From assembly GCA_019638635.1 (NCBI GenBank), contig JAHBTM010000023.1, positions 1 to 32,712 on the forward strand: a stretch of DNA of 32,712 bases. Direction: 5' to 3'. A model generated the notes under the pieces. It was given only the letters and a program-made list of their open reading frames with translations. It was not told where the DNA came from and ran no database searches. Position 1 is the stretch's first letter; each line of letters opens with the position of its first letter. This stretch comes from Ferruginibacter sp. (lineage in GTDB: Bacteria; Bacteroidota; Bacteroidia; Chitinophagales; Chitinophagaceae). Made by a program: the position numbers and the translations under genes. Of this stretch, positions 28,361-31,110 are shown piece after piece.

Positions 28361-28945
28361 TCATTTAACCGGCACAACCGTTCTGAACGTGAGATTGATT
28401 CTGGGTTCAAGCACTTTGGCCGTTTTGGGTATCTGGTGCTTCCAATAACGTTGTGTAGACCCTTTCATTTCAAGCAGACTCCCCTGCTCCAGCATCATCG
28501 AAATGGTTTCGCCGGTAATTCGGTGGCGAAAATCGAACCGGCGTGCAGCACCCAAACTCAGCGAAGCAATGGAGGCGTTGGCTTTCATTTCAGGCTCATC
28601 ATCGCTGTGCCAGCCCATCCCTTCATTGCCGTGATGATACAAATTTAGCAGACAACTATTATAGGATGAACCGGTTATTTTTTCGGTTGCTTCTTTCAAC
28701 CTCAACAATGTGTGTGTCCATTCGAGGGCAACCCTATTCACTTTTCCGTACGTATACGCGATACCGTTATCTCCATACCATGCGGTCTTTCTTTGCGTGA
28801 CCCATTCCTTTCCATAGAGTTTCACTACATCCTGTTTCCATTCTATTTCCTTCAACAGTATATCAAAATACCGTTGGGCGGTATCTTCATCCCACACCAC
28901 CCCATAGTAATATACTTCACCGTCAGTATGTAACAGGTTTTTCAT
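28361..28945 (-). CDS. alkB: AlkB-family 2-oxoglutarate/Fe(II) dioxygenase
   Basis: A 194-residue enzyme that oxidatively removes methyl groups from damaged DNA or RNA bases. The iron ligands are H113 and D115 in WHSDDE and H170 in YWKHQIPKT. The 2-oxoglutarate-binding arginines are in PRINLTFR (R182 and R188). The upstream NLYHHGNEGMGWHSDDEP and ASLSLGAARRFDFR segments are typical of the short AlkB2/AlkB3-like class. It starts ten bases after the asnA stop, so the two genes are most likely cotranscribed, placing a repair enzyme under the asparagine leader. I see no separate promoter in the gap. Confidence 0.92.
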   Translation of the reverse strand: MKNLLHTDGEVYYYGVVWDEDTAQRYFDILLKEIEWKQDVVKLYGKEWVTQRKTAWYGDNGIAYTYGKVNRVALEWTHTLLRLKEATEKITGSSYNSCLLNLYHHGNEGMGWHSDDEPEMKANASIASLSLGAARRFDFRHRITGETISMMLEQGSLLEMKGSTQRYWKHQIPKTAKVLEPRINLTFRTVVPVK

Positions 28946-29985: not shown

Positions 29986-30009
29986 AAAAAAACCCGCCAA
30001 ACAGGCGGG
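29986..30009 (-). terminator. Attenuator 2 terminator hairpin
   Basis: On the minus strand CCCGCC-TGTTT-GGCGGG then seven T: a six-pair GC stem with a five-base loop. Its 5' arm and loop (CGCCTGTT, 30000-30007) can pair with AACAGGCG at 30032-30039, eight perfect base pairs, to form the antiterminator. Confidence 0.88.
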
Positions 30010-30037
30010 CATTGCATTACAACAAACCGATCGCCTG

Positions 30038-30091
30038 TTAGGGTGATGCAGTATTGTTATTATTATTTGAAAATTGAATGGTCGTGTGCAT
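30038..30091 (-). CDS. Asn-rich leader peptide 2 (17 residues)
   Basis: The peptide reads MHTTIQFSNNNNNTASP, five consecutive Asn codons (30053-30067). The UAA stop overlaps the antiterminator arm AACAGGCG (30032-30039). A ribosome stalled on the Asn codons would leave that arm free; a ribosome reaching the stop would cover it and let the terminator form. There is no Shine-Dalgarno sequence, as is usual in this phylum. Confidence 0.8.
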   Translation of the reverse strand: MHTTIQFSNNNNNTASP

Positions 30092-30112
30092 GAGTTAATT
30101 CTTTTTGAGAAT

Positions 30113-30136
30113 AAAAAAACCCGCTAATCAGGCGGG
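30113..30136 (-). terminator. Attenuator 1 terminator hairpin
   Basis: On the minus strand CCCGC-CTGATTA-GCGGG then seven T. The 5' side (GCCCGC, 30132-30137) can instead pair with GCGGGC (30171-30176), extended to about eight pairs with one bulged C, giving the antiterminator. Confidence 0.82.
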
Positions 30137-30161
30137 CTTATCATATGTTGTTGTTGATGAA

Positions 30162-30236
30162 CTACAATACGCCCGCTGTCCGGTTATGATTCCGGTTACC
30201 ATTATCATTAAGGTTATAGTAGTTCAGGTATGTCAT
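30162..30236 (-). CDS. Asn-rich leader peptide 1 (24 residues)
   Basis: A 24-residue ORF beginning MTYLNYYNLNDNGN and ending RTAGVL. Asn occurs at residues 5, 8, 10, 12, 14, 16 and 18, alternating with other residues, so stalling could happen at many points. The antiterminator arm (30171-30178) lies in the last codons, just before the UAG stop. The start is not preceded by a Shine-Dalgarno sequence. Confidence 0.75.
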   Translation of the reverse strand: MTYLNYYNLNDNGNRNHNRTAGVL

Positions 30237-30324
30237 TTTTTTTGTACGATGTACTTTGTGAATATAGAACAGGAATTTTAGATAGAAAAAAAAATTTTAT
30301 TGGTGGTGTGCTGTTTCGTATAAA

Positions 30325-31110
30325 TCAATGTATTTTTTTAAAAAAGTATTTGATGTTGTTTTGTTCGATGACCAGTTCCTTTTCCGTGCTTTCCAATACC
30401 TTAAACTGTTGGCGGTACGTTTCTCCTGAAACATTCAGGGATGTACCCATCTTTTCGAACTGCACCGCATAGGTTTGATTTTTCCCCTGCACCACGGTGG
30501 TTATCGTACCCAACCAATGGCCGGCATTTTTTACAGAATCTACGGAAAGCGACCTAAGTGGCTCATTTTTTTGGGGAAGTTCGCCCGGTGCAGACTGCGT
30601 TCTGTAAACTCCCCATTTACCGGGGAAATACGTTGAGTTTAAATCAACAGGCTGTTCATATTCCTTGCGTTTTACCTGAGTGCGTTCGGCATCTTCCCAA
30701 TGAAATGTGGTTCTTTTTTCCAACACCCGGAAGTAATCTCCGTCATCCAGCATTAGCTGTACAGCAGACTGCTTTAGCACCCGGTAATCATCCCCGGCAA
30801 GTGAAATGGTATTGCCTTCAATCTGGGTAAGCCCTTTCATCGTCATAGATCTGCCCAAACGTACAGCAACCGAATCTTTCTGTAAAAAATGAACATACAA
30901 TGTATCTGAAAATGCTAATGTTTTTCCCTTTTCATCATTCCGGCGGGTTTCCTGCCATTTCCCATCGAGTTGGGATATATACAGTTCATTGCCTTTGGGT
31001 GCAGGTTGTTTCAGGGGGATGGGATCTACCCCTTTTCTTTTAACACGTTGTGCGGTGGCTGGGGTTCCAATGAAAAGGGACAGCACACACAGCCATACTA
31101 TTTTGTGCAT
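30325..31110 (-). CDS. Secreted protein of unknown function
   Basis: A 261-residue exported protein. The signal peptide spans about residues 1-20 (MHKIVWLCVLSLF...PATAQ). A basic linker (VKRKGVDPIPLKQPAPKG) precedes two similar beta-rich halves, each starting with a tryptophan strand: LDGKWQETRRND and FPGKWGVYRTQS. Both halves contain strand patterns such as SVAVRLGRSMTMKG and HWLGTITTVVQGKNQT, so the protein may be an internal duplication of a lipocalin-like or META-like domain. No family is named with confidence. The frame is open to 31254, but the signal peptide fixes the start. It precedes the asnA leader on the same strand without an obvious terminator. Confidence 0.65.
   Translation of the reverse strand: MHKIVWLCVLSLFIGTPATAQRVKRKGVDPIPLKQPAPKGNELYISQLDGKWQETRRNDEKGKTLAFSDTLYVHFLQKDSVAVRLGRSMTMKGLTQIEGNTISLAGDDYRVLKQSAVQLMLDDGDYFRVLEKRTTFHWEDAERTQVKRKEYEQPVDLNSTYFPGKWGVYRTQSAPGELPQKNEPLRSLSVDSVKNAGHWLGTITTVVQGKNQTYAVQFEKMGTSLNVSGETYRQQFKVLESTEKELVIEQNNIKYFFKKIH

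Follow-up and report, generated by a model that had tools for sequence, protein, structure and literature searches.

The window, that is, the whole analysed stretch of 32,712 nucleotides from a Ferruginibacter sp. genome, carries on its minus strand an asnA gene and the leader that precedes it (the focal locus, L001, entered as "window" in the counts below). Two asparagine-rich mini-ORFs, each followed by its own antiterminator/terminator pair with a seven-T tract, had been described here in the original prediction, and all of them are present exactly where they had been placed (Table 1). The gene downstream, taken there for an ammonia-dependent asparagine synthetase, indeed matches the Pfam AsnA family. 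Upstream, an ORF on the same strand ends at 30325. The candidate promoter element departs from TAnnTTTG, the -7 consensus of Bacteroidota promoters. Between 29700 and 30500, five terminator-like sites were found on the two strands (shuffle mean 0.9), namely terminators 1 and 2, a shorter version of terminator 1, and two sites within asnA. Further downstream, a 2OG-Fe(II) oxygenase gene (28361-28945; Pfam 2OG-FeII_Oxy_2) starts 10 nt past asnA and may be co-transcribed with it.

Table 1. Features of the asnA leader region in the Ferruginibacter sp. window.
Feature	Positions	Strand	Description
Candidate promoter -7 element	30259-30266	minus	TATATTCA; weak; identical letters in locus L010
Leader ORF1	30236-30162	minus	MTYLNYYNLNDNGNRNHNRTAGVL, then stop; 7 Asn codons of 24, scattered
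Gate 1 antiterminator 5' arm	30176-30171	minus	GCGGGC, within the final codons of ORF1; partner GCCCGC at 30137-30132
Terminator hairpin 1	30139-30117	minus	followed by seven T, tract to about 30113
Leader ORF2	30091-30038	minus	MHTTIQFSNNNNNTASP, then stop; 5 consecutive Asn of 17, Pro precedes the stop
Gate 2 antiterminator 5' arm	30038-30032	minus	ACAGGCG, at the stop codon of ORF2; partner CGCCTGT at 30007-30001
Terminator hairpin 2	30010-29992	minus	followed by seven T, tract to about 29986
asnA, ammonia-dependent aspartate-ammonia ligase	29966-28956	minus	336 aa; Pfam AsnA, E 1.9e-98

The trp, his, leu, ilv, and thr leaders are built from an ORF rich in the regulated amino acid, a stem over the control codons, an antiterminator, and an intrinsic terminator with a T tract. 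The asnA leader shares this anatomy, since its sequence contains amino-acid-rich short ORFs, intrinsic terminators ahead of the gene, antiterminators that exclude the terminators, and a region 1:2 stem. It differs from the trp- and his-type attenuators in that it would sense asparagine and consists of two serial units. The amino acid to be sensed is also the product of the controlled gene.

A detector of complete units was set up that requires an intrinsic terminator, an ATG ORF upstream of it that is improbably rich in Asn, and an antiterminator arm located past the Asn codons. It reports two units in the focal region, and the full pattern appeared in 0/1500 dinucleotide shuffles of that region. 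Among 5000 shuffles of the leader, a single one reached the Asn richness of ORF1, none gave an Asn5 ORF, and none gave both. The Asn codons are mixed (149 AAT and 48 AAC over 28 units), so the leaders are not a plain AAT repeat. Five successive AAY codons occur four times in the 2.57-Mb genome itself; the other three sites were rejected as leaders on frame and context, one being a bare MNNNNN before a stop and two lying inside longer frames. Moreover, RNA models were built from both units and used to search genomes. Within the genome of the window, the sole match of the unit 1 model at E ≤ 0.01 is the asnA leader locus. Three weak matches of the unit 2 model elsewhere in this genome, out of five at E ≤ 1, do not resemble leaders.

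The gene asnA is uncommon in the sampled genomes, being found in 9/294 of the family, 21/298 of the order, and 23/394 of the phylum. For comparison, 126 asnA upstream regions were collected, partly from relatives, of which the best 80 of 173 were kept, and partly from the matches of the family, order, and phylum genome searches; owing to this selection, the sample is tilted to close relatives, and it contains some near-copies. L111 (a weak, short match) and L047, L114, and L115 (copies) were left out, and L064 was counted though it has just 57 nt upstream. At least six near-identical pairs had both members counted (L004/L080, L011/L113, L053/L091, L078/L117, L088/L094, and L096/L121), with no tandem among them. 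Conservation of the Asn-run ORFs and hairpins in relatives had been named beforehand as a check, and its outcome is clearly positive. At strict cut-offs, 36 of the 126 regions hold one unit, 10 hold two, and 80 hold none; a complete Asn unit is thus present in 46/126 regions, against 0/2520 shuffles (20 per region). When the detector was reset to K, T, S, F, Y, D, Q, H, or R, it found 0 units for each of these control amino acids in the same 126 regions, and for I, L, and E it found 1/126 each.

By eye, 13 loci are tandem: L001, L010, L012, L016, L017, L025, L052, L067, L070, L074, L083, L086, and L118. They belong partly to Chitinophagaceae, Flammeovirgaceae, Seonamhaeicola, and a bin labelled Draconibacterium, and come mostly from metagenome-assembled genomes. 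In L025 and L052, the early stop of leader 2 is missing. Single gates are also common, for instance of the unit 1 type in Hymenobacter loci and of the unit 2 type in L072 and L077, and one gate is seen in L116, a relative of the same genus that has asnA. When mapped on a tree of AsnA with 125 rows, the tandem state of 12 labelled loci (without L118) requires 7 changes, at least 5 of them by well-supported branches. Given this scatter, the pair may be ancestral and many times lost, may have moved together with asnA, or may have originated repeatedly. Two further patterns were observed at loci without the pair. In Hymenobacter (L014, L020, L023, L035, and others; alignment of 16), a partly conserved stretch AAAAAAC...CCCC..GGGG..TTGCC lies between terminator 1 and asnA, in the place expected for unit 2. 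The Sphingobacterium asnA loci L059, L063, L071, L073, L079, and L082 have a terminator-like hairpin at about -160 and no Asn leader by the detector; another control may act there.

The two units of a pair are distinct in make-up, and each kind is recognisable across distant Bacteroidota. Leaders of unit 1 follow the pattern NN..NNNSNNN..RxGRLLV, and their arm (often GGAAGGCT or similar) lies inside the final codons in 10/12 loci. Leaders of unit 2 follow the pattern NNNNN(S/A)PP directly before the stop, and their arm mostly coincides with that stop or comes immediately after it. Proline is the final residue of leader 2 in 10/14 rows of alignment A1; in L025, L052, L067, and L086, SPP or PPP is followed by further residues. 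As the third positions of these codons vary (CCC, CCA, CCT, CCG), the terminal prolines look kept as amino acids. The 28 units used for measurement comprise 12 of each kind and 4 single units that were grouped with unit 2; two of these four, L084 and L089, resemble unit 1 more closely. Measured from the first base of the final Asn codon, the arm starts 9-23 nt downstream in unit 1 (12 loci) and 11-20 nt downstream in unit 2 (16 loci), which is near the expected front edge of a ribosome that would stall there. Relative to the end of the stop, it starts between 26 nt before and 5 nt after in 26/28 units.

Arms and terminators, as compared across the related sequences, change together on average over the loci. 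When arms were paired with the terminators of other loci, the own partner scored 18.0 against 14.4 for others in unit 1 (4/20,000 permutations as good, kinship ignored) and 16.6 against 12.8 in unit 2 (0/20,000, kinship likewise ignored), the own terminator being the best of its row in only 5/12 and 6/16 cases, respectively. Additionally, stem pairs of the terminators have changed on both sides in 4/8 positions of alignment A1 and 6/10 of alignment A2. Within tandem loci, arm 1 has a better fit to the terminator of its own unit than to that of the other unit in 9/12, and the same holds for arm 2 in 11/12, which indicates that the gates are mostly kept apart. The main exception is the lineage of L001 and L010, with look-alike terminators and possible cross-pairing. 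In the focal leader, the gate 1 arm pairs slightly better with terminator 2 (20.5) than with terminator 1 (18.0), so these two gates may not be independent.

Folded alone, the focal antiterminators reach -17.2 (gate 1) and -16.8 kcal/mol (gate 2), and the terminators -10.9 and -14.1 kcal/mol, respectively. As a whole, focal unit 2 folds into the terminator plus a stem over the Asn codons, and focal unit 1, with no ribosome, into the antiterminator rather than the terminator; the full 266-nt leader fold contains long-range pairs spanning both units. With a ribosome parked at the stop, the terminator forms in 28/28 units under equilibrium folding, and when the last Asn codon is occupied instead, it is still favoured at equilibrium in 25/28, so that antitermination would have to be kinetic. 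In known attenuators the choice is kinetic, and the antiterminator can form before the 3' arm of the terminator has been made. Antiterminators beat shuffles at z < -1.5 in 22/28 units; with the ribosome on the last Asn codon, the focal values are z -1.3 for gate 1 and z -3.0 for gate 2. The last Asn codon of focal gate 1 is only 9 nt from the arm. A stall on it would mask part of the arm, in line with z -1.3, and a stall at an earlier Asn would therefore be needed.

In unit 1 of the relatives, a stem (CTCG-CGAG, TTCG-CGAA, or TCGG-CCGA) brackets the last Asn run like the classical region 1:2. Its halves match each other better within than between loci, at 10.0 for own against 9.0 for other (0/20,000 permutations; 43 distinct rows with the focal locus left out and kinship ignored), where a different ORF or Asn run was picked up in some rows, e.g. 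L074, L015, L061, and L025. The focal unit 1 fold has CCGG-CCGG around AAT CAT AAC, and stems over the control codons are seen in single folds of both focal units. As regards other RNA elements, the window gave no Rfam match at gathering score, and in 20 related loci the Rfam search found just a TPP riboswitch and a tRNA, neither of which lies in a leader. A T-box riboswitch was rejected, as the Rfam models gave no T-box match in the window or in these 20 loci. Asn T-box leaders sense the charging of tRNA-Asn by binding the tRNA directly; the asnA leader would respond to the same signal but lacks any T-box match in Rfam.

The arrangement is very probably one of two ribosome-mediated transcription attenuators of the trp/his type, placed in series on one transcript and both sensing the charging of Asn-tRNA. 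When Asn-tRNA is plentiful, the ribosome on each leader would translate past the Asn codons as far as the stop and cover the antiterminator arm, whereupon the terminator would form and transcription would end near 30113 at gate 1 or near 29986 at gate 2. When Asn-tRNA is short, the ribosome is predicted to stall on the Asn codons and leave the arm free, which would then capture the 5' arm of the terminator and let RNA polymerase read on. AsnA would be made solely from transcripts that get past both gates. Since both must be passed, the leak of one gate should be multiplied by that of the other, and the span between the off and on states should increase, which would be the presumable purpose of having two. 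That one transcript carries both gates is argued by the spacing from hairpin 1 to ORF2, which measures 20-48 nt and is free of TAnnTTTG in 12/12 loci. In the 70 nt before ORF1, a longer stretch than this gap, the motif occurs in 6/12 loci and is absent at the focal locus. The original reading, in which uncharged tRNA-Asn is sensed twice, is supported by these sequence comparisons.

Several other explanations were weighed against serial sensing. The Asn runs might be low-complexity sequence and the hairpins chance, for A+T-rich DNA favours AAY codons; however, the shuffles, the control amino acids, the conservation, and the mixed AAT and AAC codons all contradict this, and its probability is negligible. 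It is also most improbable that gate 1 is the terminator of the upstream gene and that gate 2 has a promoter of its own. The same-strand ORF that ends at 30325 would suit such a role, but ORF1 and its arm stand between that ORF and terminator 1, and the 20-48 nt without TAnnTTTG before ORF2 leave little room for a promoter in the 12 loci. A more serious contender, still unlikely, is that a single gate works, its partner being a duplicate in decay or an ordinary terminator. In favour of this, many relatives have just one unit, whether of the Hymenobacter unit 1 type or of the unit 2 type of L072 and L077, the two focal terminators look alike, and focal gate 1 has a short arm that lies near its last Asn codon. 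Nevertheless, both units are complete in 10/126 loci and the arms track their own terminators within each unit. Furthermore, units 1 and 2 differ consistently in the other tandem loci, which is unlike a fresh duplication.

A further possibility is compatible with two serial Asn gates and concerns what the pair would do. The gates may have different thresholds and yield a graded response rather than squared repression, an option that is less probable than not. Gate 1 has scattered Asn codons, and gate 2 has a solid run that ends in Pro-Pro or Ser-Pro and may hold the ribosome over the arm. The two unit types, NN..NNNSNNN and NNNNN(S/A)PP before the stop, differ accordingly in this respect, and the prolines that end leader 2 in most A1 rows are apparently kept as amino acids with varied codons. 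On the other hand, leader 2 of L118 has no Pro ending, and C-rich pairing at the RNA level may account for the Pro codons.

Asparagine leaders also precede genes of the tRNA-dependent route in two genomes. In the Seonamhaeicola genome of L017, the leader MRNNNNNNNSNNPII (L155, minus strand) stands before gatC-gatA-gatB::aspS, where GatB carries a fused class II tRNA synthetase domain with a GAD domain and the GatC match is just below the Pfam cut-off (22 vs 23 bits). In genome G903, the leader MIINNNNNNFNNPNL (L161) stands before a GatA-like gene, as judged by its likeness to that of L155. Across the phylum, the unit 1 model has matches in 53/392 genomes at E ≤ 0.001. Of the 30 loci listed for this model, 27 were inspected, the other three being the focal locus and two asnA-type matches. 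The inspected loci comprise one asnA, one GatA-like gene, and for the rest mostly single leaders of Ile/Val or Thr genes, with a few loci that have no clear leader. A second terminator was noticed near L206.

Three same-signal pairs for other amino acids appeared among these inspected loci and further matches of the unit 1 model. L174 (1501-1760, the same as L221) has two Ile-rich leaders, each with a terminator, before an ilvN-like gene. L212 (1501-1745) has two Phe/Tyr-rich leaders and two terminators before pheA (prephenate dehydratase), and L216 (895-1225) has two Met/Cys-rich leaders, likewise with two terminators, before a sulfite/nitrite reductase gene. A pair of Ile leaders is present in 13/20 loci of one large genus (L174/L221, L222-L228, L234, and L236-L239), a count over the 20 best-matching of 30 loci that requires two terminators and two Ile-rich ORFs and applies no arm test. 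Two more loci, L231 and L240, have two terminators and Ile-rich ORFs under looser rules alone, and five further loci have neither. In the 30 ilvN-like loci, the strict detector with its antiterminator requirement gave one Ile unit in 3 and two in 0, and a contiguous arm for both Ile units was found in 4/15 (L228, L234, L238, and L239), some of them A+T-only; the putative antiterminators of the Ile pairs are weak. No pair was found by strict and looser scans in 30 other pheA and 30 other sulfite/nitrite reductase loci, so the pairs are not general; the strict scan gave single leaders in 9 of the 30 pheA and 4 of the 30 reductase loci. Taken at its widest, the finding might be a recurrent two-gate design of Bacteroidota (Asn for asnA, Ile for ilvN-like genes, Phe/Tyr for pheA, and Met/Cys for the reductase) of repeated origin and with mostly distinct arms, in which the Pro-rich end of the second asnA leader parks the ribosome and shuts that gate firmly. 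This broader proposal is tentative, its chances being a little short of even.

Among the closest known systems is the mgtCBR leader of Salmonella, in which two short ORFs each form an attenuator, one responding to ATP and the other to proline; in the available part of that report, attenuation is said to use normally one attenuator per signal, and the two-signal mgtCBR leader is termed singular (PMC3641672). The asnA leader likewise has two attenuator-forming leader ORFs in one leader RNA, with the single transcript judged from spacing. It differs in that both ORFs would serve one amino acid instead of two different signals, and the intrinsic terminator in each asnA leader is counted as another difference. 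The rimP leader of several Gammaproteobacteria also has serial terminators, the upstream one with a potential antiterminator, but the available portion of the source describes no amino acid leader peptide (PMC2965389), and its main text contains no words starting with asparagin or Bacteroid. For Flavobacterium psychrophilum, of the same phylum, leader-peptide attenuation of amino acid operons has been proposed, with pheA and hisG among the conserved 5' elements; it matches the mechanism class of the asnA leader, and tandem leaders go unmentioned in the part of the article at hand (PMC9723704), the main text of which has no words starting with asn. Short ORFs reminiscent of leader peptides are described in the accessible part of another study (PMC7366714). 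Engineered antisense attenuators, as far as the excerpt of their description goes, improved the dynamic range when two were composed in series (PMC3753616); they are serial like the asnA gates, but synthetic, driven by antisense RNA, and without a leader peptide.

Compared with this background, the his, trp, thr, and ilv operons named beforehand as known cases of leader attenuation stand, but the list was incomplete, as the F. psychrophilum proposal already exists in the part of that article consulted (PMC9723704). The kind of mechanism is already known, including proposals in Bacteroidota. Judged from listings, neither an Asn leader nor a same-signal attenuator pair was found in the open literature, and the Asn sensor, the use of two gates for one signal, and the conservation of the pair look new.

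The finding adds asparagine to the amino acids sensed in this way. A conserved pair for the same amino acid is a natural test of how serial gates affect leak, dynamic range, and noise, and the one-gate lineages such as Hymenobacter offer a ready comparison with the two-gate lineages. The leaders ahead of both asnA and gatCAB-type genes suggest a shared Asn switch for the direct and the tRNA-dependent routes. As the same pair is kept by several distant relatives, the asparagine supply is probably tested at two points before the cell makes AsnA.
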